Below, in pieces: positions 22,097 through 51,592 of a DNA stretch of 64,000 nt. The stretch covers positions 1 through 64,000 of the forward strand of contig NZ_JBCAUS010000003.1 of the NCBI RefSeq assembly GCF_038432375.1, read 5' to 3'. Source of the stretch: Methanococcoides sp. LMO-2. Its GTDB lineage: Archaea; Halobacteriota; Methanosarcinia; Methanosarcinales; Methanosarcinaceae. The translations under genes were made by a program, and so were the position numbers. The notes beneath the pieces were generated by a model, which searched no databases, was not told where the DNA came from, and was given only the letters and a program-made list of their open reading frames with translations. How positions within the stretch are numbered: position 1 is the first letter of the stretch; every line of letters starts with the position of its first letter.

Positions 22097-25000
22097 TTAG
22101 CTCCTCTTCCTAATTAGCAGATGGACTCCAACCAAAATCAGGATCAACAATCCTGTTGAAATCCATGGTATACCCTCGGGCTCTGGTTGCATATCCTCGT
22201 CCTCCACTACAGAGATACCCTCTTCTGATGGTGGTGTACCGTCTTCTATAGATACCGTTTTATCTTCTTCTGCAAACCCGACTATTGCAAAAGGTGAGAA
22301 GCCAGTGGTTTCCGCCTCAAAGTAGATGTATTCACCATCTTCGTCAATCTTGGTTGTAGAAAGCTCATTCCACTTCCCATCACTATAGCGATATAATGCA
22401 ATGCTGGATGCATCGATACCATTTTCAGAGAGCCATTCTTTACTTACTCTGAAGCCTATAACAGCATCTTCGATCTTATCATCTCCAAATGCAGCATTAC
22501 CAACCCAGATGTTCATGTTCTGATAAACGATGCCTGGAGCTGGAGAATCTACAAGCGCAGAAGTATCTATTAAGATCTCAATCAGGGTACTGATTAGGCC
22601 TGCATTGGCTACACCCCTGAACTGAATGTAGACAATGTGGCACTTTTCTTCAGTGAATTCGTATCTGGAAAGCTCTCCTGAAACTACATTAGAAGTTGCA
22701 GCATCTTTCACAAGAATATTCTCAAATGCTTCACCGGTAGCGCCACCACCGCCTCCTCCACTTCCGCCGCCACCGCCGGAGGATGTAGAAGTGCGCGTAA
22801 CATTTACAGATGTTGTGTTGGTATTTCCAGCAGAATCGGTAACGTTTGCATAAATGGTGTTAGCACCTATAACCAGAGCTACTGTTGCCGTGAAGGTACC
22901 ATTGAAGCCCAGAATTGTGGTTTCTGCAACAATGTCATTCACCGTAACCACTGGCAGCGATCCTGTACCATTAACAAGACCTGATACTGCAATTGAGCTT
23001 GAAGTTGTGGAAGTTCCATCCGCCGGCGAAGTAATACTGATCACTGGCATGAGATCATCAATGACAATAGCAAGCGGCAGGTAGTCAACTTCAGTTTCTG
23101 ATAGGTTGTATTGCTCATCACAGATTCCATCATTGTTGGAATCTGCTGTTTCAACACTGAATCCGGTTCCATTAGGATGTACCCAATAGTTTCCACCAAC
23201 GAAAGAACCGCCAACAATGTTTGTTCCAACATTCAGAGTGATGTTCCATGTATTTCCAGTATTTGTTCCAGCAAATTCAACGTTATTTGTATTGTTGAAG
23301 TAGTTGTTGTAGATGAGACTGTTGTTAGAATTCTCAAGATAAAAACCATCAACAGAGTTATTCAACACGCTGTTACTACTCAGAGTGTTACTGCTGGAAT
23401 TCATCATCAAGATACCGGCATCGTAGTTCGAGATTGCAACGTTGTCGAACAGAGTGTTGTTATCGCTGGACTTTTCCAGTCGGATGCCACAATTGCTATT
23501 CAAGCTTGCAGTGTTACCGTTCAGAGTATTGTTAGTAGAAGAATATAAAAAAATACCGTGATAGTTGTTAGATGCAGTGTTGTTACTCAGCATGTTATTA
23601 TTGGACTGACCGAGCAAGATGCCGAAATCAGAGTTCGAGTTTGCAATGTTATCATTCAGTGTGTTATTGCTGGAAGAAGATAGCCAGATGCCTTGGATGC
23701 TATTCATTCCAGTATTATTGCTCAACGTGTTATTGCTGGACTCATCCAGCAATATGCCGTAAAAGTTGTTCGAGTTTGCAGTGTTATTGCTTAGCGTGTT
23801 GTTATCGCTGGACTGTTTCAGCCAGATACCGTAATAGTTGTTCAAGCTTGCAGTGTTATTGCTTAGCGTGTTGTTATCGCTGGACTGTTTCAGCCAGATA
23901 CCGTAATAGTTGTTCAAGCTTGCAGTGTTATTGCTCAACATGTTGTTGCTGGACTGATTCAGCAAGATACCAAAATCGGTGTTCGAACTTGCATTGTTAC
24001 CGTTTAGCATGTTGTTATCGCTGGACTGTTTTAGCAAGATGCCGACACTGTTCGAGTTTGCAGTGTTGTTACTCAGCAAATTGCTGCTGGAAGAATTCAG
24101 ATGGATGCCCAGAATGTTGTTCATTCCAGTGTTATTGCTCAGCACGTTATTGTTTGAACTCAACAGATCAATACCGATAAAGTTGTTAGATAAACTGTTT
24201 TCAGAAATATTACAGCCCTCAAGTTCACCGAGACCTATTCCCATGCCCCCTGTTGCACCTGTCACATTGAAGCCGCTGATAGTGACGTTGTTTACAGTTA
24301 CGAAAAAGACATGATCATTTGGATCGGCAGCCTGGACAATGGTATCGTTCGGATCTCCAGACTGTGAGATGATCATTAGTTCCTTGTTCACATACACATT
24401 CTCTGTGTAGGTTCCAGGATAGACAAGGATAGTATCTCCGTTAGTTGCATTATTTACAGCAGCCTGTATCGTGGTATAATCCTGCCCACCGTTGTCATCC
24501 ACAGTGATAGTTACAGTTTCAAGCTTGATTATTACAGTAGCTGAATCAGCAGCAGACCAGACTCCGTCATCATCCTGTACACTGAAGGTAATGGTATGAG
24601 TACCGAGAGAAAGAGCGGAAGTACTGAAATTGGCAGAACTGCTTAACAAACCATCAAGATCGGAAGTCCAGTTGTAGCCTATGATCGTACCATCTGAATC
24701 AGTTCCAGAGCCATTGAATGTTACTGTTGCACCTTCAATAGCAGGATTAGGTGCAATTGAATCAATGTTTGGAATAGGAGCTACGTTCGGAAGCTCATTG
24801 ATTATCACAGTAGCTGAATCAGCAGCAGACCAGACACCATCATCATCCTGTACACTGAAGTTGATGGTATGAGTACCGACCGAAAGGCTGGAAGTACTGA
24901 AATTAGCAGAACTGCTTAACAGACCATCAATATCGGAAGTCCAGTTGTAGCCTATGATCGTACCATCTGAATCAGTTCCAGAGCCATTGAATGTTACTGT

Positions 25001-28000
25001 TTCACCTTCAACTGCAGGATTAGGTGCGATAGAATCAATGTTTGGAGTAGGAGCGATGTTTGGTGGTATTGGCTCAAGCGTAACTGGCCAGAACAGCAGT
25101 GGATAGTTGTCATCACCATAGGGTGCATCACCAATACCATCCCCATTGTTGTCCGTGCCTGTGTAGTCAGAATAGTAGTTACCTGTGTAGTTCACGTAGT
25201 TGCTACCATTGTAAGTATATTCCAGCATCTCGGTTGAGTTCCAGATATTTCCGGTATTACTTCCAGAGAATTCAACATTATTTGTGTTGTTGAAGTAGTT
25301 GTTGTAGAGGAAACTGTTGATGGACTCAGACAACCAGATTCCATAATCGTTATCCACTGCCGTGTTGTTGATCAGATTGTTATCGCTGGAATACAACAAG
25401 CCCATGCCATAGTAATTGTTTGACGCCGTGTTGCTGTTCAGAGTGTTGTAGTCGGAATTCCCCACATAGATGCCGTAGGCGCTATTATTCGATGCCGTGT
25501 TGTTGGTCACAGTATTGTAGTTGCTGTAATCCAGAAAGATGCCGTTCATGTTATTGCCAGCTACTGTGTTGCTGGTCAGGTTGTTGTTGCTGGAATACAA
25601 CAGCTCGACGCCGTGGCCGGTATTGTTCGACGCCATGTTGCCGGTCAGGTTGTTGTTGCTGGATGAAGATAGCCAGATACCTGAGTTACTATTGTTCGAC
25701 GCGGTATTGCTGGTCAGCATGTTGTAGTTACTGGATAAATACAGCCAGATGCCGTATTCGGTATTGTCCGACACCGTATTATTGGTCAGCATGTTGTAGT
25801 TGCTGGACTCAGACAGCCAGATGCCGTGACCGGTATTGTTTGATACCGTGTTGCTGGCCAGATTGTTGTCGATGGAACTAATCAGATAGATACCGTAGAT
25901 GTTGTTCGATGCCGTATTGCTATTTAGGTTGTTGTCGATGGAACTAATCAGATAGATGCCATAATCATTGTTCACTACCGTATTGCTAGTTAGCTTATTG
26001 TGATTGCTGGAATAATACAGAGAGATACCGTCGTTATTATTCGACACCGTGTTGCTGGTCAGAGTGTTGTAATTGGAATTCCCCACATAGATGCCGTAGG
26101 CGCTATTATTCGAAACCGTGTTACTGGTCAGGTTGTTGTAGTTACTGGAAGAATACAGATAGATGCCGTAATTGTTGTCAACTGCCGTGTTGTTGGTCAG
26201 TTTGTTGTAGTTGCTGGATGGATTCAGCCAGATGCCGTAGTTATTGTCAGCTGCCTTGTTGTTAGTCAGAGTGTTGTTGCTGGACTCGGACAGCCAAATG
26301 CCATAGCCAGTATTGTTCGAAGCAATGTTGCTGCTCAAGTTGTTGTTGCTGGAAAGCCACAGATTGATGCCGTGGTGGGTATTGTTCGACGCCGTGTTAT
26401 CGATCAGGTTGTTGTTGATAGACTGTCGTAGATTGATGCCGTAGGCGTTATTCGATAAACTGTTTTCAGTAACAGTACAACCCTCAACCTCATAGAGGTA
26501 GATGCCGGAAGATGAAGTGCCAACCGTTGCAACAGTGGCACCAGTTGCATTAAACCCGCTGATGGTTACATTGTTTGCGGTTACATTGAAGGCGTGATCG
26601 TTTGGATCAGCGGCCTGGACAATTGTATCATCCGGATTTCCGGACTGCGAGATTATCGTTAATTCCTTGTTCACGTCCACATTTTCAGTGTACGTTCCTT
26701 TATTCACAACGATCGTGTGTCCATCAAGTGTTGCAGGATCATTGATAGCAGCTTGTATTGTAGAAAAATTCTTGCCAGAATCTATGTTATAAACAGGCAA
26801 GGTTGCCATTTCTGTAAGCGGTAGATAATCTCCACCATTAATTATATCGCCTGTAGAATTGTATGGAAGCAAAGTATCTCCCAACCTATCATTATCAGTA
26901 TCAACACCAGCATAATCTGACCAGTAGTTTCCTCCAAGATAATATCCACCAATGATGTTTGTACCTGTTGTTTTTGTGATATTCCAGACGTTATTTCCAT
27001 TATCATACGCATTATTGGTGTTGTTGAAATAATTGTTATAGATGAGGTTGTTGCTGGAAGAATCCAGATAGATGCCAACATTGTTGTCTGCAGCGGTGTT
27101 GCTGGTCAGCTCATTGTTGTTGCTGGACACAAACAGCCTGATGCCAATATCATTATCCACTGCCATATTACTAATCAGATTGCTGTAGTCGGAAGAATCC
27201 AAATCGATGCCGTTGTTATTGTCCAACGCCGTATTGCTAACCAGCGTGTTGTTGCTGGATGAATACAGAAGGATTCCAGTATTGCTGTTTGACACTATAT
27301 TGCCGGTCAGGCTGTTGTTGTTGCTGGAGAAATGCAGTAGGATGCCGAAGGCGCTATTGTTAGACGCTGTGTTGCTGATCAGCGTGTTGTCGCTGGAATT
27401 CAATAGATCGATGCCGTAGGCGCTATTGTTCGAAGCATTGTTGCCGGCCAGGGTGTTGTTGCTGGAATAACGTACATAAATGCCGTAATTACCATTGTTC
27501 GAAGCCATGTTGCTGGCCATATTATTGTTATCGGAAGAATCCAGCATGATGCCATAATTGTTGTTCGAGGCCGTGTTACTGTTCAGGTTGTTGTAGTTGC
27601 TAGACCCAGACAAAAGGATGCCGTAGATGGTATTGTTCGAGGCCGTGTTGCTGACCAGCGTGTTGTCGCTGGAAAAATCCATAACGATGCCGTAGGCGCT
27701 ATTGTCCGAAGCCGTGTTGCTGACCAGCGTGTTGTTGTTGCTGGAATCCAGCAGGTAGATACCGTAGGCGCTATTGTTCGAAGCCGTGTTATCGGTCAGG
27801 GTGTTATTGTTGCTGGAATCAAACAGCCAGATGCCGCGGGTGTTGTTCGAAGCCATGTTGCCGGTCAGCGTGTTGTTGTCGCTGGATAAATACAGATAGA
27901 TGCCGTAATTGTTGCCCGATGCCGTATTGCTGATCAGAGTGTTATTGCTGGATGAAGACAGAACGATGCCGTAGTCGTTATTGTTAGACACCGTGTTGCC

Positions 28001-28609
28001 GGTCAGCGTGTTGTTGTCGCTGGATAAATATATCCAGATTCCGTAGGTATTGTCCACTGCAGTATTGCTGGTCACATTATTGTAATTGCTGGATACAGAA
28101 AGCCAGATTCCGTAGGTGTTGTCCAACGCCGTATTGCTGGTCACATTATTATAGTTACTGGAATTATACAACCAAATGCCGTAGTTGTTGTTTGATAAAC
28201 TATTTTCAGTAACATTACAACCTTCAACCCCATTGAGATAAACACCTGCGACAGAATCGGTGGCACCCGTGAAATTAAACCCGCTGATGGTCACATTGTT
28301 TGCGGTCACACTGAATACGTGCTGGTAAGAATTAGCAGCATGGACAATTGTATCTTCTGGATTTCCGGACTGTGATATGACTGACAGTTCTTTGTATACG
28401 TCCACGTTCTCTGTATAGGTTCCCGGATAGACAATGATAGTATCGTCATCAATTGCATTATTTATAGCACCCTGTATCGTAATATAATCCTGGTCATCGC
28501 TGTCACCCACAGTAATAACAGCTGCATTTGCAGAAGCAACTGAAAGAATCAAAAGTAAAAATATGGAAATAATGTTTTTAAGCACCAATTTCGAGCAATT
28601 AGAATACAT
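22097..28609 (-). CDS. Giant NosD-type beta-helix surface protein with PKD and PGF-pre-PGF domains
   Basis: 2170 residues with signal peptide (KNIISIFLLLILSVASANA). Three blocks each begin with a pectate-lyase-like cap (DYTTIQAAVNNATNGDTILVYPGTYTENV) and continue as 22-24-residue NosD/parallel beta-helix rungs (YGIWLxxSSNYNxLTSNTASNN). Two near-identical PKD-type domains (about 1220-1390) separate blocks two and three. Then come an immunoglobulin-like domain (SITSPADGTSTT), a Gly/Ser linker, a PGF-pre-PGF domain and a C-terminal membrane helix with RKRS tail. It is probably anchored outside the cell and may bind polysaccharide or act in adhesion. The ATG at 28609 precedes the signal peptide; the frame opens 23 codons earlier. 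Confidence 0.9.
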   Translation of the reverse strand: MYSNCSKLVLKNIISIFLLLILSVASANAAVITVGDSDDQDYITIQGAINNAIDDDTIIVYPGTYTENVDVYKELSVISQSGNPEDTIVHAANSYQHVFSVTANNVTISGFNFTGATDSVAGVYLNGVEGCNVTENSLSNNNYGIWLYNSSNYNNVTSNTALDNTYGIWLSVSSNYNNVTSNTAVDNTYGIWIYLSSDNNTLTGNTVSNNNDYGIVLSSSSNNTLISNTASGNNYGIYLYLSSDNNTLTGNMASNNTRGIWLFDSSNNNTLTDNTASNNSAYGIYLLDSSNNNTLVSNTASDNSAYGIVMDFSSDNTLVSNTASNNTIYGILLSGSSNYNNLNSNTASNNNYGIMLDSSDNNNMASNMASNNGNYGIYVRYSSNNTLAGNNASNNSAYGIDLLNSSDNTLISNTASNNSAFGILLHFSSNNNSLTGNIVSNSNTGILLYSSSNNTLVSNTALDNNNGIDLDSSDYSNLISNMAVDNDIGIRLFVSSNNNELTSNTAADNNVGIYLDSSSNNLIYNNYFNNTNNAYDNGNNVWNITKTTGTNIIGGYYLGGNYWSDYAGVDTDNDRLGDTLLPYNSTGDIINGGDYLPLTEMATLPVYNIDSGKNFSTIQAAINDPATLDGHTIVVNKGTYTENVDVNKELTIISQSGNPDDTIVQAADPNDHAFNVTANNVTISGFNATGATVATVGTSSSGIYLYEVEGCTVTENSLSNNAYGINLRQSINNNLIDNTASNNTHHGINLWLSSNNNLSSNIASNNTGYGIWLSESSNNTLTNNKAADNNYGIWLNPSSNYNKLTNNTAVDNNYGIYLYSSSNYNNLTSNTVSNNSAYGIYVGNSNYNTLTSNTVSNNNDGISLYYSSNHNKLTSNTVVNNDYGIYLISSIDNNLNSNTASNNIYGIYLISSIDNNLASNTVSNNTGHGIWLSESSNYNMLTNNTVSDNTEYGIWLYLSSNYNMLTSNTASNNSNSGIWLSSSSNNNLTGNMASNNTGHGVELLYSSNNNLTSNTVAGNNMNGIFLDYSNYNTVTNNTASNNSAYGIYVGNSDYNTLNSNTASNNYYGMGLLYSSDNNLINNTAVDNDYGIWLSESINSFLYNNYFNNTNNVEFSGSNTGNIWNSTEMLEYTYNGSNYVNYTGNYYSDYTGTDNNGDGIGDAPYGDDNYPLLFWPVTLEPIPPNIAPTPNIDSIAPNPAVEGETVTFNGSGTDSDGTIIGYNWTSDIDGLLSSSANFSTSSLSVGTHTINFSVQDDDGVWSAADSATVIINELPNVAPIPNIDSIAPNPAIEGATVTFNGSGTDSDGTIIGYNWTSDLDGLLSSSANFSTSALSLGTHTITFSVQDDDGVWSAADSATVIIKLETVTITVDDNGGQDYTTIQAAVNNATNGDTILVYPGTYTENVYVNKELMIISQSGDPNDTIVQAADPNDHVFFVTVNNVTISGFNVTGATGGMGIGLGELEGCNISENSLSNNFIGIDLLSSNNNVLSNNTGMNNILGIHLNSSSSNLLSNNTANSNSVGILLKQSSDNNMLNGNNASSNTDFGILLNQSSNNMLSNNTASLNNYYGIWLKQSSDNNTLSNNTASLNNYYGIWLKQSSDNNTLSNNTANSNNFYGILLDESSNNTLSNNTGMNSIQGIWLSSSSNNTLNDNIANSNSDFGILLGQSNNNMLSNNTASNNYHGIFLYSSTNNTLNGNTASLNSNCGIRLEKSSDNNTLFDNVAISNYDAGILMMNSSSNTLSSNSVLNNSVDGFYLENSNNSLIYNNYFNNTNNVEFAGTNTGNTWNITLNVGTNIVGGSFVGGNYWVHPNGTGFSVETADSNNDGICDEQYNLSETEVDYLPLAIVIDDLMPVISITSPADGTSTTSSSIAVSGLVNGTGSLPVVTVNDIVAETTILGFNGTFTATVALVIGANTIYANVTDSAGNTNTTSVNVTRTSTSSGGGGGSGGGGGGATGEAFENILVKDAATSNVVSGELSRYEFTEEKCHIVYIQFRGVANAGLISTLIEILIDTSALVDSPAPGIVYQNMNIWVGNAAFGDDKIEDAVIGFRVSKEWLSENGIDASSIALYRYSDGKWNELSTTKIDEDGEYIYFEAETTGFSPFAIVGFAEEDKTVSIEDGTPPSEEGISVVEDEDMQPEPEGIPWISTGLLILILVGVHLLIRKRS

Positions 28610-28944
28610 CGAACCCCACCATTTAAAATTATATTTTAATGCTATAAATTCATATCGAGATATAATTTTCAAGAACAATTACTTTTTAACAGCATGCAAA
28701 TACTTGTCTAAAACTAACTCGCTGTAGGAAATCAACATCCTTAGAGTTAGAAGGAAACTGCACTCCCCCAAATAATAAAAATATGGAGATTTTTTAGTAT
28801 TACTAAACCCCCGACATTAAACAATTTTAAATAGATTTTTAGCATTTTTTCTCGATCCAAAACTTAATATTTCGCACAACGAGTAAGCTTTGAACTCAGA
28901 TAGAGATATAGAAAAGAAAAGAATAGCAAGAGCACACGAAAAAC
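28610..28944. other. AT-rich intergenic region upstream of the giant surface gene
   Basis: About 335 bases with high AT content and no supported gene. Minus-strand TATA-like stretches lie around 28625-28670 ahead of the giant surface protein. Nothing else stands out. Confidence 0.4.
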
Positions 28945-29165: not shown

Positions 29166-29462
29166 TTATTTTGTGAGATTTTTATTCTTTAAAATCTCAT
29201 TCAATTTTTCACTTAATTCATAACGACTATCCATGCAGTTAGGTTCAACTTTTTCACAAACGATCAATCCACTTTTCTTTAGCTGAACAACCTGTGGAAC
29301 TAATTTTTTGGCACAAGGTCTCTTTGACAGGCTATGTAAAATTTCTTCTAAACTAAGACTACTTTCTGAGTTTGAAAGTACTTTTAATACCCCACGTTGT
29401 AAAGATGATATATTTTGGAGACCAAATTCCTCTGCACAAATTTGGATAATGTGGGATGACAT
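29166..29462 (-). CDS. Small winged-helix transcription regulator
   Basis: 98 residues with a winged-helix fold pattern: LQRGVLKVLSNSESSLSLEEILHSLS, then KLVPQVVQLKKSGLIVCEKV and the wing strand DSRYELSEKLNEIL. The ATG at 29462 follows AGGAAG. It lies 63 bases behind the MtmB-like gene on the same strand, so it is a likely regulator of that methyltransferase module. It is shorter than the Msr-type methyltransferase regulators known in Methanosarcina and has no sensor domain. Confidence 0.7.
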   Translation of the reverse strand: MSSHIIQICAEEFGLQNISSLQRGVLKVLSNSESSLSLEEILHSLSKRPCAKKLVPQVVQLKKSGLIVCEKVEPNCMDSRYELSEKLNEILKNKNLTK

Positions 29463-29525
29463 CAAAATCTTCCTGAAAAGAAAAGATACCGTCCAAGAGG
29501 TCGGCATCATTGCTTTTTTGAGTTC

Positions 29526-30905
29526 TTACTCAAAGTCAAATCCCATATCGGACAACTTTGCCTTTGAAGATGCCCACAGGTCTTCAAATTCCTGTGATGG
29601 TCTAACGTTCTTCAGGTCATAACATTCGTAGAACTTCTTACCTGCAGGTGCTTTGCCAGATGTTACTGCTTCGGTATATGTTTTTGCAAGTTCAAGTCCA
29701 AATTCGTTCATGTCCTCCAGACTCATTTTAGACGCTGCCATGCTTATTTCAGCACAGATTCTGCCATCCATTCCAGAGCTGCAATCAGTTTGAGCACCAA
29801 CTAGACCGCACGGTCCAACGAAGTGAGATGCACCGGTCACTGTTGTTGCACCAGCAAGGACTGCTGTTTCATTCATGAACATCTCTGTGCACATTCCAGC
29901 AGATGGGAATACATAAAGGCTGGTCATAAGATCAGTATTTCTTGCAAGTGAAGCCATCACCAGTGATGTGGACCAGACGGCATGAGGACTTGATCCCTCC
30001 CCTGTCATCATATTGAGAGGGGCTGTCATTACATATAACTCAGATCCGGTAAGTAAGTAGGTGTAAATACCCTCTGCCACTGTAGCGATTGCTGTAGTTG
30101 CCGGACCGCCAGTATATCCACCCAGGATTGGACACATGCATGAAAGTGGTTTATAGTTATTCAGGCTTGTGTTCGCAATTTTGTTGAGAATTGCCCAATC
30201 TAGTTTCATATCATTCATGAAACAAATCGTATGCATATCTTCAGGTCTCAATGCTCCTGGAGCATCTGCAAAAAACTGGCCTTCAGTAGATACTGCTGAC
30301 ATAACACCGATTATTGGAAATCCCGGTTTTCCAGCCCTGTATAAACCTTCTCTGGTCCACATGATTTCAGATCTTGCAGCCATTAATTCTATAGGAGTAC
30401 CTGCTTTTATGTCCATATCGTATAGATAAGGAAGAGTCGGTGTATGGATTCCTTTTACAAGTGGCTCCTGGGCGATAGACTGGGCGTGCTTTACAATATA
30501 TTCCTGGCTCATACCGCCACCGCCGGTGCCTCCAAAAACGACAGGTGCTCTGGAATTATCTTCCATATTTCTCTTTACAAGGGTAATTTTATCATTTCCA
30601 GAGCCATATTCTTCTCTTCCAGCACAGGTAGCCATATGATTTTTGATTTCTTTTTCATCAAACTCAATAACACGACTCGTACTTGCGTTATAGACTCCTA
30701 CATCGACAAGCAGATCAATCGCTGCACTATAAACAGAATCAATTAGATCCATGTCGAGTGGCATGATTTCTTCACCAGTGTATTTAATATCATATTCTTT
30801 TGCCAGTTCCATCAATTTCTGAGGAAGGACTCTATTATCAAAGTTTTTTTCTTCAATTACCTTTCCCGAAAGAGATCTATTGAAAGTATCAAGAATGTTT
30901 AACAT
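29526..30905 (-). CDS. MtmB-family methyltransferase lacking pyrrolysine
   Basis: 459-residue homologue of monomethylamine:corrinoid methyltransferase MtmB (usual length about 458). The family scaffold is clear: APVVFGGTGG, GGYTGGPATTAIATVAEGI, PSAGMCTEMFMNETAVLAGA and the C-terminal AGKKFYECYDLKNVRPSQEF. In MtmB of Methanosarcina barkeri the pyrrolysine lies in SLSA-Pyl-GNISAD; here the matching stretch reads AVSTEGQFFAD, so the residue is Glu, encoded by an ordinary codon. GAGGTGAT precedes the ATG. The corrinoid protein gene is 9 bases upstream, so the two form one operon. The substrate is unknown; a methylated compound other than monomethylamine is likely. The alignment was made from memory. 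Confidence 0.8.
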   Translation of the reverse strand: MLNILDTFNRSLSGKVIEEKNFDNRVLPQKLMELAKEYDIKYTGEEIMPLDMDLIDSVYSAAIDLLVDVGVYNASTSRVIEFDEKEIKNHMATCAGREEYGSGNDKITLVKRNMEDNSRAPVVFGGTGGGGMSQEYIVKHAQSIAQEPLVKGIHTPTLPYLYDMDIKAGTPIELMAARSEIMWTREGLYRAGKPGFPIIGVMSAVSTEGQFFADAPGALRPEDMHTICFMNDMKLDWAILNKIANTSLNNYKPLSCMCPILGGYTGGPATTAIATVAEGIYTYLLTGSELYVMTAPLNMMTGEGSSPHAVWSTSLVMASLARNTDLMTSLYVFPSAGMCTEMFMNETAVLAGATTVTGASHFVGPCGLVGAQTDCSSGMDGRICAEISMAASKMSLEDMNEFGLELAKTYTEAVTSGKAPAGKKFYECYDLKNVRPSQEFEDLWASSKAKLSDMGFDFE

Positions 30906-30914: not shown

Positions 30915-31565
30915 TCACATTGCCATTGCTTTCTTTGTAATTTCTACTGCTTCAGCTGCATTTTGGGCATAGTAGTCAGCACCAATCTCATCAGCGTATT
31001 CCTGTGTAATTGGAGCACCACCAATCATGAGTTTAAACTGATCCCTGATTCCCATTCCATCAAGAAGTCCCAATATATCCTTAAAACTGGACATTGTAGC
31101 ACTCATAAGAGCCGAAGCAGCTATTAGATGAGTATTATTTTCTTTAGCCGCAGCTATGATCTTTGATGCAGGAACATCTGTGCCGAGATCTACAACATTA
31201 AATCCTGCTGTCTTTAACATTCCACCAACCAGATTTTTCCCGAGATCATGGATATCTCCTTCTACTGTTGCAAGAACAACGGTTCCCAGTGAGACAGATG
31301 TTACTCCTTCTGCAGCCATTTTATCAGACAGGGCTTTGTTTGCTTTTTCCATTATTTCAGCACCAATCATAACTTGCGGAAGGAAGTATTCCATTGATTC
31401 AAATTTTTTACCAACTTCAGCCATAGCTTCTGCCAGTTTGTTCACTAGTTTGACAGGATCGAAATTCCCTTCTATCCATTCATTGACCACTTCTTCTACT
31501 TTCCCTTCGTTTATTTCTACGAGAGCAGTGTAGCCCTCTTCAAGTAATTCATCTTCAACACTCAT
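30915..31565 (-). CDS. Methyltransferase corrinoid protein (MtmC/MtgC-like)
   Basis: 216-residue two-domain corrinoid protein: an N-terminal helical cap (about 1-90) and a B12-binding domain with the base-off motif GDIHDLGKNLVGG (D-x-H-x-x-G), then VIDLGTDVP-like and SALMSATM, GGAPITQEYADEIGADYYAQNA. It accepts the methyl group from its partner methyltransferase and hands it on to a CoM methylase. The ATG at 31565 follows AAGGAGATAA. It is first in the operon with the pyrrolysine-free MtmB homologue and divergent from the MttB-like gene. Confidence 0.9.
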   Translation of the reverse strand: MSVEDELLEEGYTALVEINEGKVEEVVNEWIEGNFDPVKLVNKLAEAMAEVGKKFESMEYFLPQVMIGAEIMEKANKALSDKMAAEGVTSVSLGTVVLATVEGDIHDLGKNLVGGMLKTAGFNVVDLGTDVPASKIIAAAKENNTHLIAASALMSATMSSFKDILGLLDGMGIRDQFKLMIGGAPITQEYADEIGADYYAQNAAEAVEITKKAMAM

Positions 31566-31639
31566 TTTATCTCCTTCTTTTTTGGCTTTCAATTTTTAAG
31601 TACATAGATTTTGCATTAACTAGTATATATCTTTATTGT

Positions 31640-31690
31640 AGCAATACTTATATATTACATTTTAAAGACAATATGTTTATATATAATAAG
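31640..31690. promoter_or_regulatory. Divergent promoters of the methyltransferase module
   Basis: Between the corrinoid gene (minus) and the MttB-like gene (plus) lie CTTATATATTAC near 31648 and GTTTATATATAATAAG at 31675-31690, both good archaeal TATA boxes. They probably drive the two divergent methyltransferase transcripts, leaving a leader of about 150 bases for the plus-strand gene. Confidence 0.45.
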
Positions 31691-31839
31691 ATCAAACTTT
31701 AAAATAAATAACAATCGACGAACACGCAACAAAAAAATAGCATAAATGTGGAAATCGATTTATACACTAGTTTTTTATTGTGACCTCGTATACATGGACA
31801 ACAAAAACAAAAGCGAACATACTTTGATAAGAGGTTTTT

Positions 31840-33282
31840 ATGTTAAATGGTCTGCAAGATAAAATGAGTGGAAAATTAGAGTTCCTTTCAGAAGATGACT
31901 GTGAGAAGATTCACTATGCTTCCCTAGAGGTACTAAGTGAAGTGGGTCTTAAAATTGAACCCGGATACGCATTGGATGCATTGGAAGAGATGGGTTGTGA
32001 TGTGAACAAGCGAACTTCAATAGTCAAATTTCCAAATTATCTTGTTGAAGAATGCTTACGTGCTTGCCCTCATTCAGTTAAATTATATGGACTGGATTCA
32101 AAGTATGATATTAAGATGGAAAAAAAGAGAACATATGTCTCTACAGGTACAGGCTATGGCGTAATTGATGAAAAGGAAAATCTAGCGAGAGCTGGAAATT
32201 TAAATGATGTTAGAGAAGCTACACTGATTGCCCATCATCTGGATAATATTCATTCAATATCTCCCCCATTGGTGGGAGTTTCAGATAGCCCTGCAAATAT
32301 CGCAACAGAGACAATATTAGCTGAGACTTTGAAAAATACTAACAAAACTATTGAATTTTACCTGACAGGAACCTCTGATTCAAAGCCGGAAGTTGATGAC
32401 CTAATTTCTTTATGTGAACTTGTCGCCGGAGGGGCTGCAGAACTAAAGAAACGTCCATTTGCGATGCTTGCTCTCAACCCTGTATCCCCTTTAATATACC
32501 CTGAAGAGCAGATCTCATCTATTTTTAAGTGCGTAGATGCTGGAATACCTGTCGCGATTATGCCAGGTGCTGTTGGTGGTGCCACTGCACCCATAACAAT
32601 TTCAGGAATACTCACACAGAGCAATGCTGAATTCCTTGGTGGCGTGGTACTTGCAAACATAGTTAAGAAAGGTGCACCGGTTGTTTACGCGCATTACAAT
32701 TCAATAATGAATATGCAAACAGGAAACTATTCTGCCGGCTCAGTAGAGATGGGGTTAATAGGATCTTGCGTAGGACAACTAGGTAACTGGTACGGCATCC
32801 CAACAAATGGTTTTTTCCCTATGTCCGATTCGCACATTCCAGACCAACAAGTCGGTTATGAAAAAATGATGCAATGGGTCCTTTCTACTCTTGGAGGCAT
32901 GAATTATTTAAATGGGGCAGGAAGTGTCGAAAACGGTACTCTGATCTCACTAGAACAGCTTGTAATTGACAACGAAGTTGTTGGAATGGTCGATCGCATG
33001 CTCAAGGGCGTTCAAGTTGATGACGAAAGGATAGGAATAGACACTATCAGCAAAGTCGGACCTGGAGGAAATTACTTCAAACAAGCCCATACATTACAAT
33101 GGTCCAGAGATGAGTGTTTTATCCCAAAGATAAGTGAAAAGGAATCTTTTTCAAATTGGGAAGGGGAAAACGTCATAACAAAAGCAAAAGCAACAGTTGA
33201 TGAAATGCTACGCAATGTTGAAACGCCAGTGGATAAAGATATAATCAAAGATATTGAACAGTTCCAGAAAGAGTTGCTGTGA
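31840..33282 (+). CDS. Pyrrolysine-free MttB-family methyltransferase (MtgB-like)
   Basis: 480-residue COG5598 (MttB superfamily) protein without an in-frame UAG. It aligns along its whole length with the two MttB proteins further on. Their segment around pyrrolysine (GIPS.VAG-Pyl-.[13 protein letters not shown]) is replaced by GIPTNGFFPMSDSHIPDQQVGYEK. Such non-pyrrolysine members include glycine betaine methyltransferase MtgB, and Methanococcoides strains are known to use betaine and choline. A quaternary amine substrate is therefore likely but not proven. AGAGG precedes the ATG. The corrinoid partner is probably the divergent gene upstream. Confidence 0.85.
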   Translation: MLNGLQDKMSGKLEFLSEDDCEKIHYASLEVLSEVGLKIEPGYALDALEEMGCDVNKRTSIVKFPNYLVEECLRACPHSVKLYGLDSKYDIKMEKKRTYVSTGTGYGVIDEKENLARAGNLNDVREATLIAHHLDNIHSISPPLVGVSDSPANIATETILAETLKNTNKTIEFYLTGTSDSKPEVDDLISLCELVAGGAAELKKRPFAMLALNPVSPLIYPEEQISSIFKCVDAGIPVAIMPGAVGGATAPITISGILTQSNAEFLGGVVLANIVKKGAPVVYAHYNSIMNMQTGNYSAGSVEMGLIGSCVGQLGNWYGIPTNGFFPMSDSHIPDQQVGYEKMMQWVLSTLGGMNYLNGAGSVENGTLISLEQLVIDNEVVGMVDRMLKGVQVDDERIGIDTISKVGPGGNYFKQAHTLQWSRDECFIPKISEKESFSNWEGENVITKAKATVDEMLRNVETPVDKDIIKDIEQFQKELL

Positions 33283-33784: not shown

Positions 33785-34999
33785 ATGAAAATGCTACTTC
33801 TAAACGGTCATGGAATTAACATGAGGGTTGATGCTGCTAAACTCCATATCAAAGATGGAAGATTTTCAACCACTGAAAAACCGCAAAAGTATGTGTTCTA
33901 TCCAAAGAGGATAGATATCGATAGTATTGTTGTGTATGGTCGGAGCGGATCATTGAGTTTTGAGGCTATCAGATGGTTGATCAAACATAATGTCCAGATC
34001 TCTATACTCAATTGGGATGGCAAGTTATTGACAACAATGCTACCTTCTGAAAGTACCAATGTAAAGACTAAGTTTGCTCAGTATCGTGCCTATGAGGATG
34101 AGACGACACGAATCAAAATAGCAAAAAAGTTTATCGAAGCTAAGTTTGATAAGTCTCAGATCACGCTGGATTATCTCAAAGAGCGCTATCCTTCAATTGA
34201 TTATGATTTCTCTGAAGAAACGAAGAAATTGGAGAAGGCTAAGAGAGTAAACGATGCCCTAGGTGCTGAGGGTGGTGTAGCCTCCAAGTACTGGAATGAA
34301 TTCTTAAAAGCTATACCTGAGAAATACGATTTTGAATCTCGACTTAACCAGAGCGGGAGAGCCATAGGGGCTGGTGATATGGCAAATGCCATGCTTAACT
34401 ATGGCTACGCATTGTTAGAGGCAGAGTGTCTGAGGGCCATTAACTCTGTGGGGCTAGATCCTCATGTGGGTTTCTTGCATGAAATGAATCCAAGTAAGAA
34501 TAGTCTGGCTTATGATCTTCAGGAACCTTTCAGATTCCTTATTGATCTTGCTGTCCTTAACCTGATTGAGACGAATGGCATAGACAAGAAGGACTTCATC
34601 AGGACAGAAAATTATTCCTTGAGGCTCAGGCCCAGTGGGGCTAAGAAACTGACTGAAGAGATTAATTGGTGGTTTAACAAACGAGTTAGATATCAAAACA
34701 AAAATCCAATGTGGAATTATGTTATTCTCCTGAAAGCTAGAGAACTAGCTTATTATCTAACTGGTAAACGCAAAGAGATTGACTTTTTGAAACCACAATA
34801 TCCGACAAAACGACAGGATTCAAGCAACATGCGACAGAAGATACTCAGTATATCATATTCGGATTGGAAAAAGCTAGGTTTTTCGAAAGGAACATTGCAT
34901 TATATGAAGAAAAATGCAGAAGCTGATAAGCCTTTTACTCTTAACGCACATGTTAGGGAAAGGTTGGAGAATTGGAATAATCTTATTAAAAAAGTTTAA
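33785..34999 (+). CDS. cas1: Cas1-family casposase (casposon integrase)
   Basis: 404-residue Cas1 homologue with an N-terminal beta domain (VVYGRSGSLSFEAIRWLIKH; SILNWDGKLL) and a C-terminal catalytic domain with the metal-binding set E162 (AEGGVASKYW), H232 (GFLHEMNPSK) and D244/E247 (LAYDLQEPFR). A C-terminal extension contains a helix-turn-helix (YSDWKKLGFSKGTLHYMKK, about 358-376), as in casposases and unlike CRISPR Cas1. No cas2, effector genes or CRISPR array are nearby. It lies 391 bases inside the left inverted repeat. It inserts the element by 3'-end transfer, producing the 14-bp duplication. Confidence 0.95.
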   Translation: MKMLLLNGHGINMRVDAAKLHIKDGRFSTTEKPQKYVFYPKRIDIDSIVVYGRSGSLSFEAIRWLIKHNVQISILNWDGKLLTTMLPSESTNVKTKFAQYRAYEDETTRIKIAKKFIEAKFDKSQITLDYLKERYPSIDYDFSEETKKLEKAKRVNDALGAEGGVASKYWNEFLKAIPEKYDFESRLNQSGRAIGAGDMANAMLNYGYALLEAECLRAINSVGLDPHVGFLHEMNPSKNSLAYDLQEPFRFLIDLAVLNLIETNGIDKKDFIRTENYSLRLRPSGAKKLTEEINWWFNKRVRYQNKNPMWNYVILLKARELAYYLTGKRKEIDFLKPQYPTKRQDSSNMRQKILSISYSDWKKLGFSKGTLHYMKKNAEADKPFTLNAHVRERLENWNNLIKKV

Positions 35000-35024
35000 T
35001 ATCATCAAAATCTGGGAGCTTTTT

Positions 35025-35120
35025 ATGTCAAATAATAAATTTGTTAGAAATGATTTATGTCCTTGTGGTAGTGGTATAAAACATAAAAAATGCTGTATGC
35101 CAAGACTTCAGTTCTCCTGA
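35025..35120 (+). CDS. SEC-C motif micro-protein (31 aa)
   Basis: 31 codons from ATG at 35025, with GGGAG about 8 bases ahead. The sequence is a SEC-C zinc motif: RNDLCPCGSGIKHKKCC (C-x-C-x8-C-C). Such motifs occur at the C-terminus of SecA and in many small zinc proteins. It starts 25 bases after cas1, so it may be co-transcribed. Function unknown. Confidence 0.7.
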   Translation: MSNNKFVRNDLCPCGSGIKHKKCCMPRLQFS

Positions 35121-35171
35121 TCCACCCTTTAGGTCTGAAACGTCTAATAGATTCCCTAGCAGCTCATTTGG

Positions 35172-35987
35172 TTACATAGAACTCTCAACGTTAACTTTGG
35201 ATTCGTCTCTTATTCTGGCAAGAATATCTGCTGTTTCTGTCTCTCCTTCTTTTCTCAGTCGATTTTCCAGATAAAACAGTTCTGTCCTTCCATTTTCAAT
35301 GACCTTGGCTGTGAACTTATCTCCATAATCACCTTGGAATATTGATAACTTGCCCACTTCAATGTCCTTTTTCAATCGTTCAAGAACAGACTTATCATTA
35401 TAATATCCAAGGAGCTGGATAACAAAACGTCTTAGCATTGGACCATTTTTATGCCCCTCTGGATAGCTTTCTAACAAATTCCTTAATCCATCCAAAAAAG
35501 CAGTTTTATCACTCGGTTTTATTCCTTTAGTTGTGATATGCTCATGGAGAATCCTCAATAAGCTTTCTATTAAAATAGCGTCCTTACCATCTAAATTTAA
35601 AGCTAAAATGTCTAAATGACTTGAATCCAAAACGTACTTCTTCCCATATCTTTTTAATTCAGCCAGTACCATTTTTTTATCAATGTCATCTCCTTCACTG
35701 AGAAACTTAAATATCTCGTCCAAGTGCCTCTTCATCTCAGCAGTTTCTTTTAAAATCAGATACTTTGCTCGGTCATCCGGCTCTTCTTTGCCATACTTTC
35801 TAACCTGTTCAGCGTTCAAAGTTTCAAGTGGACCTTCATCTTTGGTCATTTGCTCCAGTTTTCTATAAATTGTTCTTTTACTCCCACTTTCTTCAGAATG
35901 GTTTTCTAGCAGGTGATCAACGAGTTGCCCCGTCCTCACAAAGCCATTTTTTGCTATGTATTCAATAATTATTATGTCAATATCCAT
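35172..35987 (-). CDS. Winged-helix domain protein of the casposon
   Basis: 271 residues. The N-terminal winged helix reads IIIEYIAKNGFVRTGQLVDHLLEN then GSKRTIYRKLEQMTKDEGPLE. The rest is helical and charged without a recognised family. The ATG at 35987 follows AAAGGAAC; the frame extends 20 codons upstream without a start signal. It is divergent from the HTH-HNH-PolB operon and convergent with cas1, so it is a candidate regulator of the element. Confidence 0.65.
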   Translation of the reverse strand: MDIDIIIIEYIAKNGFVRTGQLVDHLLENHSEESGSKRTIYRKLEQMTKDEGPLETLNAEQVRKYGKEEPDDRAKYLILKETAEMKRHLDEIFKFLSEGDDIDKKMVLAELKRYGKKYVLDSSHLDILALNLDGKDAILIESLLRILHEHITTKGIKPSDKTAFLDGLRNLLESYPEGHKNGPMLRRFVIQLLGYYNDKSVLERLKKDIEVGKLSIFQGDYGDKFTAKVIENGRTELFYLENRLRKEGETETADILARIRDESKVNVESSM

Positions 35988-36180
35988 GTTATAGTTCCTT
36001 TTTTTAATGTCAATAACTTTAATGATTAATGTAAAATTTAATGTCAAAAATCATGTCATTATGAACATATAGTCATTGATTGTTTTTAAATTTTGGTGAT
36101 TAAAGTGCGCACGAAGTCGCTGATCAGAATTGTGCTTTCTCCTTACTTTATAGGAGGGGGTACAGAGAAGAGGTAGTAAA

Positions 36181-36816
36181 ATGAACAGATTCTCAAAAAA
36201 ATACAAAACATTTGAAGAATGGCTCAAAAACAAACCCCGAACATCCAAATATGCAAGAAGAATCATTGATTTGCATGAGCGATTTCCGCACCTAACTCTT
36301 GGAAAGATTCGTGAGCTTCACCAACATGACTATAATATTAGCATTGTTCCTTGGACTGAACTGTCACCGAAGGACAAAAGAGACAGAACACAGGTTTTGA
36401 GAGTTTTAAACTCTATCAGAAAGGGGAACTCGTTAACACATACACTTGATGAGGCTGGTGTCAGTAGGGACATAGTAATGCGACATCTTGGAAGAAATCT
36501 TCTCAAAAAAGCAGGAAGATGGAGTGCCAGACCTGTAGATAAGATACAGGTTGAGATGCCGATCAATACAAAAACTGAAGGAAGGACCTCAATAATAACT
36601 TCCAGTTCACAGGACAGAGCATTGATTGGTAAATACTTTGCGCATGTCCAAATTGCTCTGTATACTGGTGAGCCTTCAGAGCTTGATGATTTTAAAGATG
36701 TGGTTATCGTAGATGCCGAAGGTAAACCGCATAAGCTGGAAACGGATTTGGAGACCATTTATGAGATTGAAGAGGCGATGGAAGAGCCTGAGTTCTTTGA
36801 GATCTACAAGTATTGA
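36181..36816 (+). CDS. Casposon helix-turn-helix protein
   Basis: 211 residues. A basic N-terminal part (RFSKKYKTFEEWLKNKPRTSKYARRIIDLHERFP) leads to a helix-turn-helix-like region (LNSIRKGNSLTHTLDEAGVSRDIVMRHLGRNLLKKAGR, about 79-115). The C-terminal half is acidic. HTH proteins at this position are typical of casposons. It has a GAGG ribosome binding site and is first in a tight operon with the HNH nuclease and polymerase. Confidence 0.75.
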   Translation: MNRFSKKYKTFEEWLKNKPRTSKYARRIIDLHERFPHLTLGKIRELHQHDYNISIVPWTELSPKDKRDRTQVLRVLNSIRKGNSLTHTLDEAGVSRDIVMRHLGRNLLKKAGRWSARPVDKIQVEMPINTKTEGRTSIITSSSQDRALIGKYFAHVQIALYTGEPSELDDFKDVVIVDAEGKPHKLETDLETIYEIEEAMEEPEFFEIYKY

Positions 36817-36828
36817 GGAGGTGATTAA

Positions 36829-37161
36829 ATGAACAAAATGACTTACAAGAACAGCATTAAGAAGCAGATACGTGAAGGAGAGCTGAAAGTTTGCTGTCGC
36901 ATTTGTGGAGAGGATGATCCCCATGTGATCGAACAGCACCACATAGAAGGAAGAGCAAATTCAGATGTAACGATACCACTGTGCAAAAATTGCCATGCAA
37001 AAATCACCCATGAGCAGAATGCCTTGAAACCAGAATTCAGGTTCCGTAAAGCACCACCTAAGAATAAAGGTGGGTTCAGCATGGTCTCGATTGGAGCCCT
37101 CTTGGAAGTGGCAGGCAACATACTGATCAAAAATGCACATGAGGGATTGGACAATGACTAA
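36829..37161 (+). CDS. HNH endonuclease of the casposon
   Basis: 110 residues with a zinc-supported HNH core: CRICGEDDPHVIEQHHIEG, then IPLCKNCHAKITHEQN. Cys pairs bind zinc, and the HH and the later H form the nuclease site. A perfect GGAGGTGATT precedes the ATG. HNH nucleases are standard casposon components of unclear role, perhaps excision or replication. The stop overlaps the polymerase start by 8 bases (ATGACTAA). Confidence 0.9.
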   Translation: MNKMTYKNSIKKQIREGELKVCCRICGEDDPHVIEQHHIEGRANSDVTIPLCKNCHAKITHEQNALKPEFRFRKAPPKNKGGFSMVSIGALLEVAGNILIKNAHEGLDND

Positions 37162-39856
37162 TGTAGCTGTCAGGACCTTTGCCTCAAGACCAGAAGTAAA
37201 GGCCCGAAACTATTCATTGAAGATGGATTCAGATATAAGCTATCCACGAGTCTTTGTTTTTGATACAGAGACAACGATTGATAGGTATCAGAATCTAAAG
37301 ATTGGATACTTCCAGGTATATCAGGAGGATTTTTACCAGCAGGAGGGGGTTTTCTATGACCCCTCTATGCTCAACGAGAAGGAATCGAGATGTATTGTGG
37401 ACTATGCATCAAAACATAATATTGAACTGTACACCTTAAAAGAGTTCGTGGAAGATGTATTTTATCCTGAAGTTTATAAGCTCAGGAGTCTGTGTATTGG
37501 CTATAATCTGGCATTTGATATCAGCAGACTTGCTCATGCTTGCAATCCATCTAGGAAGTGGTCAAAGGGTGGGTTTACATTCACCCTCTCCAAGAAGAAG
37601 GCAAATCCCCAGATAATTATCCGTAAGATGGGGGATGCAAATACCTTCAAGTTCACTACCACTAAGGAAAACAGGAAAAATGACTATTTTCCAGGTGATT
37701 TCTTGGATGTGCAAAGGTTAGCAGAAGTGCTACTCGAATCGGATCATATTTCACTCGCAAAGGCCTGTGAAAGATTGGGGACAAGAACGAGGAAAATAGC
37801 TGACATTGAATATGGAGATGTCACTGAAGACTTGATCGAATACCTCATTACTGACGTACGTGCAACTTATGAGGTCTACCTGAAATTGATGCAAGAACTG
37901 AAACTGTACAGCATACCCGTTCCGCCTACACGGATATACAGTGCTGCCTCAATGGGAAAGTATGCATTGGCAAGTCTTGGTGTAGTTCCATTCAGGGTAC
38001 AAAACCCTGAATTTCCTCCTGAGATCGTTGGAAACATCATGGCTTCCTATTATGGTGGTAGATGTGAATGCATGGTCAGAAAAAAGACCAGGAAGACGAC
38101 AGTTCTCGACTTTACGAGCATGTACCCAACTCTGGTACTTGAGATGGATCTCTGGAAATACATCATTGCAGATTCGATTGAAACACATGATGTTACTGAT
38201 GAAGTTAAGGAGATGCTTCCAAACATCAATCATTCATATCTGCAGGATAGCAACAAATGGAAAGATTTCGTTGTTCTTGTGAAGATGGTTCCATGTGGAG
38301 ATATCCTGCCAGTGAGAATGGATTACAAGAAAGAAGGGATGCTCAATGTGGCTCAGAACTATCTATCAATAGAATCTGAAATGTGGTATACTCTGCCTGA
38401 TGTCATTGCTTCATGTCTGGTGACCGGTAAAGAACCAGAGATTAAAGAAGCTGTACGATTTGTGCCAAAGGGAGTACAAAATGATTTGGTTAAGTCTACC
38501 ATCTTTGGAACTGAGATCGATCCGGCTAAGGACAATCTCATAAAATTTCTGGTGGAGGAAAGGCAGAGAGTTAAAGAGCAGATCAAAAAGATGGAGAAGG
38601 CAAATCCTCAATACAAACAGTTGGAGGACAGGAGCCGTGCGATTAAGATTCTTGTCAATGCCATGTGTTATGGGATTTTTATAGAACTTAATCCTGAAAA
38701 TGAGAAGAGCAGTTTCAATGTTTATGGCCTTGCTGAGACCATTGCTTCAAACAGCTATTTCGAGAGACCGGGCAGATATTTCAATCCACTCATTGCAACA
38801 ATGATCACGGCGGGTAGCAGACTGTTTCTGACCATGGCTGAAACACATCTGAAAAAGTCAGGACGCAGTCATATCTATATGGACACTGACAGCATCTTTG
38901 TACCACCAGAAACCGCTGATGATCTGATTAATCATTTCCAGCCCTTAAGTCCGTATGACACCAAGATCCCATTGCTCAAGAAAGAATGGAATAATGTTCT
39001 GTTTTATGGGATCAGTAGTAAACGGTATTCCCTTTACACGCTGAATGAGGACAGGATTGAACTTGCAGGAATGGGTGAAGACAGGTCATACAAACTTCAT
39101 GGTCTTGGCCATCTTGCCAATCCATTTCCCAATGAGAATGATGACTGGCATGCAGAAGTATGGTATGATATACTCCGCTTACATCATGAGAAGACTGCAT
39201 TGGAAGAGATAGTAGAGAAGTACGGTATGCTCTATTCACTATCCAAGTTTACTGTGAGCACTCCTGAGATCCTGGATTATTTCAAAACCGTTAATAAGTT
39301 GAGACCCTGGAAAAAAAGGATAAAGCCATTCAACTTTGCGTATACAGGATTCCAGACAATTCTGGAAGGGAATATGCCTGTGAAACCTCTGGTACCTTAT
39401 ACCAGCGATTCACAAACGGTAGTTTACGGTAAGTTTATCGACCTCTATACAGGCAAGGTCAAAGAAGGCATGAAATACTTCAAACCTTTGAGCAAGACCA
39501 TAATCCAGTATGTAGACCATCGGGAGGTAAAGTTCAACTGTGTCACTGGTATGCTGGAAAGAAAGCAGATACTTGCCGATGGAATCATGCCCATTGGAAA
39601 AGAGACAAACAAGATAGATGAGCAGATATTGGATGGCAGGCAACCACAGGTATTCCTTAGTAATGATGAAAGGGAGAAGATCCTCGATAAGTTGCTGGAA
39701 TTTCCTCAGAAAACTGCTGAAAAGCTGGGTGTTAACAGAGGGACCTTGGCAAAAATCAAACGAAAAATACGTAAGAACAGGTCTAAATTCAGGATGGATA
39801 CTAAAGCTACTAAGAAACTGGTGCAGTATCTGTACTGGAACAATGTAAACGAGTGA
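37154..39856 (+). CDS. polB: Family B DNA polymerase of the casposon
   Basis: 900-residue PolB. The exonuclease motifs are FDTETT (ExoI), IGYNLAFDISRL (ExoII) and YLITDVRATYEVY (ExoIII). The polymerase motifs are DFTSMYPTLV (A), KILVNAMCYGIF (B) and YMDTDSIF (C). All catalytic Asp residues are present. The C-terminus (KLLEFPQKTAEKLGVNRGTLAKIKRKI) looks like an added helix-turn-helix. The ATG at 37154, inside the end of the HNH gene, has GAGGG 8 bases ahead. It presumably copies the element during transposition. Confidence 0.95.
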   Translation: MTNVAVRTFASRPEVKARNYSLKMDSDISYPRVFVFDTETTIDRYQNLKIGYFQVYQEDFYQQEGVFYDPSMLNEKESRCIVDYASKHNIELYTLKEFVEDVFYPEVYKLRSLCIGYNLAFDISRLAHACNPSRKWSKGGFTFTLSKKKANPQIIIRKMGDANTFKFTTTKENRKNDYFPGDFLDVQRLAEVLLESDHISLAKACERLGTRTRKIADIEYGDVTEDLIEYLITDVRATYEVYLKLMQELKLYSIPVPPTRIYSAASMGKYALASLGVVPFRVQNPEFPPEIVGNIMASYYGGRCECMVRKKTRKTTVLDFTSMYPTLVLEMDLWKYIIADSIETHDVTDEVKEMLPNINHSYLQDSNKWKDFVVLVKMVPCGDILPVRMDYKKEGMLNVAQNYLSIESEMWYTLPDVIASCLVTGKEPEIKEAVRFVPKGVQNDLVKSTIFGTEIDPAKDNLIKFLVEERQRVKEQIKKMEKANPQYKQLEDRSRAIKILVNAMCYGIFIELNPENEKSSFNVYGLAETIASNSYFERPGRYFNPLIATMITAGSRLFLTMAETHLKKSGRSHIYMDTDSIFVPPETADDLINHFQPLSPYDTKIPLLKKEWNNVLFYGISSKRYSLYTLNEDRIELAGMGEDRSYKLHGLGHLANPFPNENDDWHAEVWYDILRLHHEKTALEEIVEKYGMLYSLSKFTVSTPEILDYFKTVNKLRPWKKRIKPFNFAYTGFQTILEGNMPVKPLVPYTSDSQTVVYGKFIDLYTGKVKEGMKYFKPLSKTIIQYVDHREVKFNCVTGMLERKQILADGIMPIGKETNKIDEQILDGRQPQVFLSNDEREKILDKLLEFPQKTAEKLGVNRGTLAKIKRKIRKNRSKFRMDTKATKKLVQYLYWNNVNE

Positions 39857-41091: not shown

Positions 41092-41742
41092 TTATTCAAC
41101 CAATGCCTTGCACTTTACGACTGCATCGTTTGCGTTCTCAGCATAGATGTCTGCTCCGATCCTGTCTGCCCAGTCCTGGGTAACAGGTGCGCCACCGACC
41201 ATTGTCTTTACAGAGTCACGGAGGCCTGCTTCCTTAAGCTGCTCTTCGATCTGCATCTGAAGGACCATTGTAGTGGTCATAAGTGCGGAAGAACCAACTG
41301 CAATTGGCTGATGTTCTTTGACTGCTGCGACGTAGTCTGCGACTGGTACATCACGACCAAGGTCGATGATATTGAAGCCAGCGATCTTGAGCATTGTTGC
41401 GACGATATCCTTACCGATTGTGTGGATGTCACCCTCGATTGTACCGATTGCGATCTTACCCTTGCTCTCTGTTGCTGCACCTTGCTTCTCAAGAATAGGT
41501 GTGAGGACTGCAACACCACCGCTCATTGCTTCGGATGCTGCAATAACGTGTGGAAGGAAAAGGGTACCCTGCTCGAACTGGTCACCGACTTCATTCATAC
41601 CTGCGGTAAGACCATCCTGAATAAGGGATACGACGTCAACACCTGCGCCGATTGCTTCTTCACACACTTCTTCTACTGCTTCGTCATCGAAATCCATGAC
41701 TGCAGCTTTTGCTTTTGCGTTAATTTCATCCTGTGTAACCAT
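41092..41742 (-). CDS. mttC: Trimethylamine corrinoid protein MttC
   Basis: 216-residue corrinoid protein with the B12 motif GDIHTIGKDIVATM (D-x-H-x-x-G), then IDLGRDVP, GSSALMTTTM and MVGGAPVTQDWADRIGADIY. It takes the methyl group from MttB and passes it to a CoM methylase. GGAG precedes the ATG. The gene directly follows mttB (27 bases apart). Assignment to MttC rather than MtbC rests on its pairing with mttB. Confidence 0.9.
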   Translation of the reverse strand: MVTQDEINAKAKAAVMDFDDEAVEEVCEEAIGAGVDVVSLIQDGLTAGMNEVGDQFEQGTLFLPHVIAASEAMSGGVAVLTPILEKQGAATESKGKIAIGTIEGDIHTIGKDIVATMLKIAGFNIIDLGRDVPVADYVAAVKEHQPIAVGSSALMTTTMVLQMQIEEQLKEAGLRDSVKTMVGGAPVTQDWADRIGADIYAENANDAVVKCKALVE

Positions 41743-41769
41743 TTTTAAAACTCCTGAATTTCAACAAGT

Positions 41770-43236: not shown

Positions 43237-43339
43237 TTTCTTATCTCCTTATAATTTATGATGGTGTAAATCTTCTGGTTTTTGACTCACATCCACAATC
43301 CTTCAATTGACATAACTAGTATTTATTTTTTTCTATCCA

Positions 43340-43385
43340 ATAGGTATATTTATATACTAGAACATTAAAAACATTTATATATCAT
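43340..43385. promoter_or_regulatory. mttB/mttP divergent promoter region (block A)
   Basis: Two TTTATATA boxes at 43349-43356 and 43374-43381 lie in the 224-base gap between divergent mttB and mttP. The same two boxes, 25 bases apart, recur in block B (51481-51488 and 51506-51513). The mttP leader ATGATTCAGTAAGAGAGAAAT is kept almost unchanged in both. Confidence 0.5.
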
Positions 43386-43460
43386 CACCTGCAATGTTTT
43401 GTTGATCCATATGATTCAGTAAGAGAGAAATTGTAACAATGGATCAAATGAGGTGTCTAT

Positions 43461-51369: not shown

Positions 51370-51469
51370 TTATCCACTTCCTTCCAATTTATGATGATGT
51401 GATTCTTCTGATTTTCAATCCACATCTCCAATGTATCGAAAGCATAACTCATATATAAAATTTTCTATT

Positions 51470-51515: not shown

Positions 51516-51592
51516 GCCACTTACAATGGTTTGTTGATCTATATGATTCAGTAAGAGAGAAATTATAACAATGGATCAAAAGAGGCGTCTAT

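Follow-up and report, generated by a model that had tools for sequence, protein, structure and literature searches.

What does an MtmB-family methyltransferase act on when its gene has no pyrrolysine codon? By the established view, the pyrrolysine (Pyl) of MtmB holds methylamine as an adduct, opening the methyl group to attack by Co(I). The question is raised by a gene for an MtqB-like non-pyrrolysine MtmB-family methyltransferase of 459 residues, placed by its PF05369 match, an alignment with 1L2Q and a tree, at 29526-30905 on the reverse strand of the window, the whole stretch of 64,000 nucleotides analysed here (Methanococcoides sp. LMO-2, GCF_038432375.1, contig NZ_JBCAUS010000003.1, positions 1 to 64,000).

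Family and fold

The open reading frame is uninterrupted, with no in-frame stop and a start codon that sits behind GAGGTGAT. The protein matches positions 2-449 of the 450 in PF05369, the Pfam model for MtmB (340.8 bits vs a cut-off of 25, E = 1.6e-101), and its best solved match is MtmB 1L2Q (residues 10-458, E = 7e-61); it is a full-length member of the MtmB family, far beyond chance. A sequence-only reading of this DNA had described a full-length MtmB scaffold without a UAG, and both points are borne out. PF05369 is the sole Pfam match, with no match to the PF06253 (MTTB) profile; a genome-wide PF06253 search likewise did not return the gene, no NCBIfam model matched the protein, and no relatives were found in IMG/VR. 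An ORF of 114 residues (29166-29510, reverse strand), 15 bp downstream of the methyltransferase gene, has no Pfam match and the look of a winged-helix regulator.

An AlphaFold2 model, built on a six-row alignment, matches MtmB in Foldseek (E = 3e-33, TM 0.88) and in VIA-align (Z 46.7, rmsd 2.2 Å, about 430 residues); against the MttB superfamily, Z reaches just 18-19. Structural alignment against MtmB had been named beforehand as a refuting test, and it keeps the protein inside the family. The model has low confidence at the active-site stretch (residues 203-265), and we therefore make no claim about predicted pocket geometry. Compared with MtmB (PDB 1L2Q, 1NTH, 1TV2), the protein shares the family, the fold and the partnership with a corrinoid protein, but has neither Pyl nor TAG and is about 28% identical. 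It resembles MtgB and the other non-Pyl enzymes of the MttB superfamily (PDB 2QNE, 9YCE) in being a non-Pyl relative of a Pyl enzyme with a similar barrel (Z 18.9), and presumably in its way of working, as MtgB, a glycine betaine methyltransferase, passes a methyl group from a quaternary amine to a corrinoid protein; it belongs, however, to a different family, with 10-11% identity over about 300 residues.

Pyrrolysine column and active site

As seen in the two TAG-containing copies of this genome (L001 and L002), MtmB reads GRPGMxV-Pyl-GPETSLSAQGNISAD, with Pyl directly before GPETSLSA. When aligned with 1L2Q and the TAG-containing family members, Pyl202 of MtmB falls on Ile199, and Glu208 falls on MtmB Gln211, nine residues downstream of Ile199. 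The sequence-only reading had set Pyl after SLSA, too late in the sequence, and had seen Glu at its position; both statements are wrong, and Glu208 is ruled out by this alignment as a substitute for Pyl. The Pyl column is variable in the clade to which the protein belongs (I, V, Q, T or L), and Glu208 is invariant (7/7 members).

Three further residues of the 1L2Q active site, Glu229, Glu259 and Gln333, which surround pyrrolysine, are invariant in the aligned TAG-containing copies and are replaced here by Thr226, Cys256 and Tyr331, respectively. With all four MtmB active-site residues replaced, the monomethylamine-activating site has been lost in its entirety. The earlier suggestion of a different substrate or chemistry stands to this extent, as the active site of this non-Pyl family member has been rebuilt for something other than monomethylamine activation. 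A pocket signature common to the clade (M202, S203, E208, Q210, W237, C256, M257 and T270) is also present in the 459-residue protein, which has Y331 besides; clade-wide replacements relative to Pyl-MtmB, all found in this protein, include E205M, T206S, Q211E, N213Q, L240W, E259C, Q260M and E273T. Thr226, in the Glu229 column, is unique to this protein, with Leu in all other clade members. The exchange of polar MtmB residues for Ile, Cys, Met, Trp and Tyr fits what a cation-holding pocket might look like.

These replacements bear on two other explanations. The protein could be a methyltransferase for monomethylamine or another methylamine that uses an acidic or polar residue instead of pyrrolysine, as the original Glu idea held; the invariant Glu208 could sit near the pocket, and the related MtqB of strain Q3c, discussed below, is weakly active with monomethylamine (MMA; PMC13044021). 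We consider this unlikely, since Glu208 aligns with Gln211 and not with Pyl202, Pyl202, Glu229, Glu259 and Gln333 are all replaced, and the genome already holds two TAG-containing mtmB genes. The loss of all four catalytic residues could also mark a degenerate, inactive MtmB copy. This explanation we regard as scarcely credible, as the gene is full length, has its start codon behind GAGGTGAT and is paired with a corrinoid gene whose cobalamin motif is intact, and the replacements are common to the clade and conserved across it.

Non-pyrrolysine clades of the MtmB family

A tree of 44 MtmB proteins from the family Methanosarcinaceae resolves into four groups, each with 100/100 support: Pyl-MtmB and three non-Pyl types. 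Of the five MtmB-family genes in the source genome, two contain TAG and three do not. One non-Pyl type is widespread, with its source-genome copy (G000) at C2:870507-871874, and one is sporadic, with its copy at 47366-48733 in the window. The 459-residue protein lies in the remaining clade (100/100 as a whole), where it groups at 100/99 with proteins of two congener genomes, G020 and G024; it is 54% identical to both, and these are 77% identical to each other. The clade is rare: of 393 evenly sampled genomes of the phylum, four exceed 770 bits, the next score being 346, and a search of the family added one more clade-bearing MAG, G005. Within the genus it occurs in 3/11 genomes (the source genome, G020 and G024).

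The two other non-Pyl clades resemble the 459-residue protein in being TAG-less MtmB-family genes of the same genome, but are separate and fully supported, with other residues in the active-site columns. The gene at 47366-48733 (forward strand; 273 bits to PF05369) has Val in the Pyl column, lies downstream of a TAG-containing mtbB and encodes a product 68% identical to a protein of G100. The widespread, well conserved type has Met in the Pyl column and 83-97% identity within the genus and is missing from G017; no corrinoid gene was found within the 4.35 kb examined beside its source-genome copy. In G018, all that is seen of the Pyl mtmB genes is fragments located at the ends of contigs or close to them (C1, C3 and C10), most likely identical copies that collapsed in the assembly.

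Relation to MtqB

A function for a non-Pyl MtmB homologue was first published in March 2026, for MtqB of Methanococcoides methylutens Q3c; it is a tetramethylammonium/choline:corrinoid methyltransferase, and its corrinoid protein, MtqC, is encoded adjacent (PMC13044021). Both proteins are abundant in Q3c on tetramethylammonium and choline, and recombinant MtqB methylates cob(I)alamin with tetramethylammonium (37 nmol/min/mg), choline (42 nmol/min/mg) and, weakly, MMA (11 nmol/min/mg), with no methylation from TMA or glycine betaine (PMC13044021). The MtqB cluster contains Methanococcoides and Methanosarcina sequences, and in it one Met and one Cys close to the ligand are fully conserved (PMC13044021, Fig. 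5D).

Q3c MtqB has 87% and 78% identity to its SA1 and AM1 homologues, respectively (PMC13044021); the proteins of G020 and G024 share 77% with each other. SA1 is most likely the source of G020, and AM1 that of G024, which would make the two proteins orthologues of MtqB. The invariant residues of our clade include Met202, Cys256 and Met257; the paper gives its conserved Met and Cys without residue numbers, and Met202 and Cys256 would be in line with them. By gene order, pocket signature and the published identity figures, the clade is probably that of MtqB.

Since MtqB has already been described (PMC13044021) and the 459-residue protein groups with presumed MtqB orthologues, the earlier claim of a new methyltransferase type fails; the protein is best read, on its sequence, as a further member of the kind first described in 2026. 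Like MtqB/MtqC of M. methylutens Q3c and NaT1 (PMC13044021; Asakawa 1998), it belongs to the non-Pyl MtmB family, has a corrinoid gene directly upstream and clusters with Methanococcoides and Methanosarcina sequences; the Met and Cys conserved at the ligand in MtqB may be shared as well. Unlike the two presumed congeneric orthologues, at 54% identity, it has Thr226 for their Leu; a further difference from MtqB/MtqC is the divergent MttB-like gene beside its gene pair.

Probable corrinoid partner and neighbouring genes

The corrinoid gene (30915-31565, reverse strand) lies directly upstream of the methyltransferase gene, from whose start its stop is 9 bp away, and has a probable ATG start at 31565 behind GGAG. 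The encoded MtqC-like protein of 216 residues was recognised by its B12-binding domains and its identity to the clade partners; it contains the cobalamin motif DxHxxG, scores just under the cut-off of TIGR02370, has MttC (7xcn_M) as its best solved match, and shares 57-59% identity with its counterparts next to the G020 and G024 methyltransferase genes. The pair is kept at all clade loci examined except for one G005 copy. The corrinoid protein is likely the partner of the 459-residue methyltransferase, and its proposal as such from the sequence is thus supported by conservation of the pair in the clade.

An A+T-rich intergenic stretch (31566-31839) separates the corrinoid gene from a divergent gene for a non-pyrrolysine MttB-superfamily protein of 480 residues (31840-33282, forward strand), identified by PF06253 and the genome search. 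Promoters of both divergent genes are expected in this stretch; a promoter and terminator scan, which used a sigma-70-type model not suited to archaea, returned hits at chance level. The MttB-like gene is the sole non-Pyl gene of its superfamily in the source genome (genome-wide PF06253 search) and occurs in 6/11 genomes of the genus, and its protein has Met in the MttB Pyl column. G024 has the same divergent arrangement, with an MttB-like gene 84% identical. The product is a candidate quaternary-amine methyltransferase. The label MtgB was not adopted, because the protein scores higher against MttB structures (236 bits) than against MtgB (214 bits) and has a homologue (53%) in the genome taken as M. 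burtonii, a reported betaine non-user.

GC3 of the methyltransferase-corrinoid pair is 0.29-0.35, compared with 0.45-0.53 for housekeeping genes of the window, and is equally low in several other genes of the region, such as the MttB-like and transporter genes, so that composition gives no clear sign of a foreign origin. Beyond the MttB-like gene, 33785-39856 holds cas1, an HNH-like small ORF (a CxxC...HH...H pattern in the translation, no Pfam match) and an adjoining family-B DNA polymerase, with no other cas genes seen nearby; it looks like a casposon beside the methyltransferase genes, with no clear long terminal inverted repeats. Two TAG-containing mttB genes of the window (in 41092-44558 and 49909-52690) each lie beside a divergent gene for an EamA-type (MttP-like) permease; the permeases hardly differ from one another, and the DNA around them occurs as a repeat (91% over 300 nt). 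On the other side of the pair, 22097-28678 (reverse strand) encodes a surface protein of 2193 residues with many NosD/beta-helix repeats and PKD domains.

Substrate and proposed function

Methanococcoides vulcani uses betaine, choline and dimethylethanolamine, whereas M. burtonii and M. methylutens are reported users of dimethylethanolamine and not of choline or betaine. The clade is missing from G017 and G018, the genomes taken as M. burtonii and M. methylutens, respectively. With the genomes assigned to species in this way and the source genome taken as M. vulcani, the clade's presence goes along with choline use among the few strains whose physiology is known. No report was found of tetramethylammonium use by M. 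vulcani. A further explanation is a demethylase for dimethylethanolamine, a tertiary amine, in the choline pathway; M. vulcani, the presumed source species, uses this compound, and no enzyme is assigned to it. This we hold to be very improbable, since M. burtonii is a reported user, yet its presumed genome, G017, has no non-Pyl MtmB at all, and a tertiary amine would presumably have to be activated first.

The 459-residue protein probably acts on quaternary amines, as a divergent methyltransferase of the MtqB type whose most likely substrates are choline and/or tetramethylammonium. It would be the substrate-specific methyltransferase of a quaternary-amine:coenzyme M system, with the product of 30915-31565 as its MtqC-type corrinoid protein. 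The quaternary amine would sit in the TIM barrel where MtmB holds the pyrrolysine-amine adduct, and cob(I)alamin of the corrinoid protein would attack one N-methyl group directly. Pyrrolysine would be unneeded because the quaternary nitrogen is already positively charged and hence a good leaving group; for a charged quaternary ammonium, it can be enough that the pocket offers sulphur and aromatic side chains. Methyl-CoM for methanogenesis would then come from a methylcorrinoid:CoM methyltransferase encoded at another locus, and three genes of the source genome score over the cut-off of that family (MtaA/MtbA type). The family, the fold, the loss of the four MtmB active-site residues, the clade, the paired corrinoid gene and these MtaA/MtbA-type genes are results of the present analysis. 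For substrate and chemistry, and likewise for the direction of attack and the choice of partner, the proposal draws on the published MtqB and on which strains use choline.

The 54% identity, against 84% for the neighbouring MttB-like gene, and the Thr found in no other clade member may leave room for a different substrate. The protein could be a substrate-shifted MtqB paralogue with the same fold, the same partner and direct Co(I) attack, preferring another methylated cation or acting on only one of the two MtqB donors. This would fit its long branch (0.48) and its identity of 54%, where the non-Pyl MtmB that the same genomes inherited vertically keeps 90-97%. It would also fit a corrinoid protein that has diverged equally (57-59%) beside an MttB-like gene at 84%, and the Thr226 that replaces the clade's Leu in the Glu229 pocket column. 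On the other hand, all other clade-defining pocket columns are unchanged and the clade tracks choline use, and we regard such a shift as possible but doubtful. Only tentatively do we also consider a distinct subfamily next to MtqB: while the MttB-like gene stayed conserved, the adjacent methyltransferase-corrinoid pair would have been swapped or have changed quickly, and the donor served today would differ from the two published for Q3c, being for instance choline but not tetramethylammonium, or a quaternary amine not yet described.

In marine sediments, methane is formed directly from choline and tetramethylammonium, and an archaeal enzyme for them was identified only in 2026. Within the genus, the clade could serve as a marker of choline use, and the tree reveals two further non-Pyl MtmB clades in methanogens. 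As a divergent natural variant, the protein, together with the clade-wide residues, offers a test of how the MtmB barrel works without pyrrolysine.
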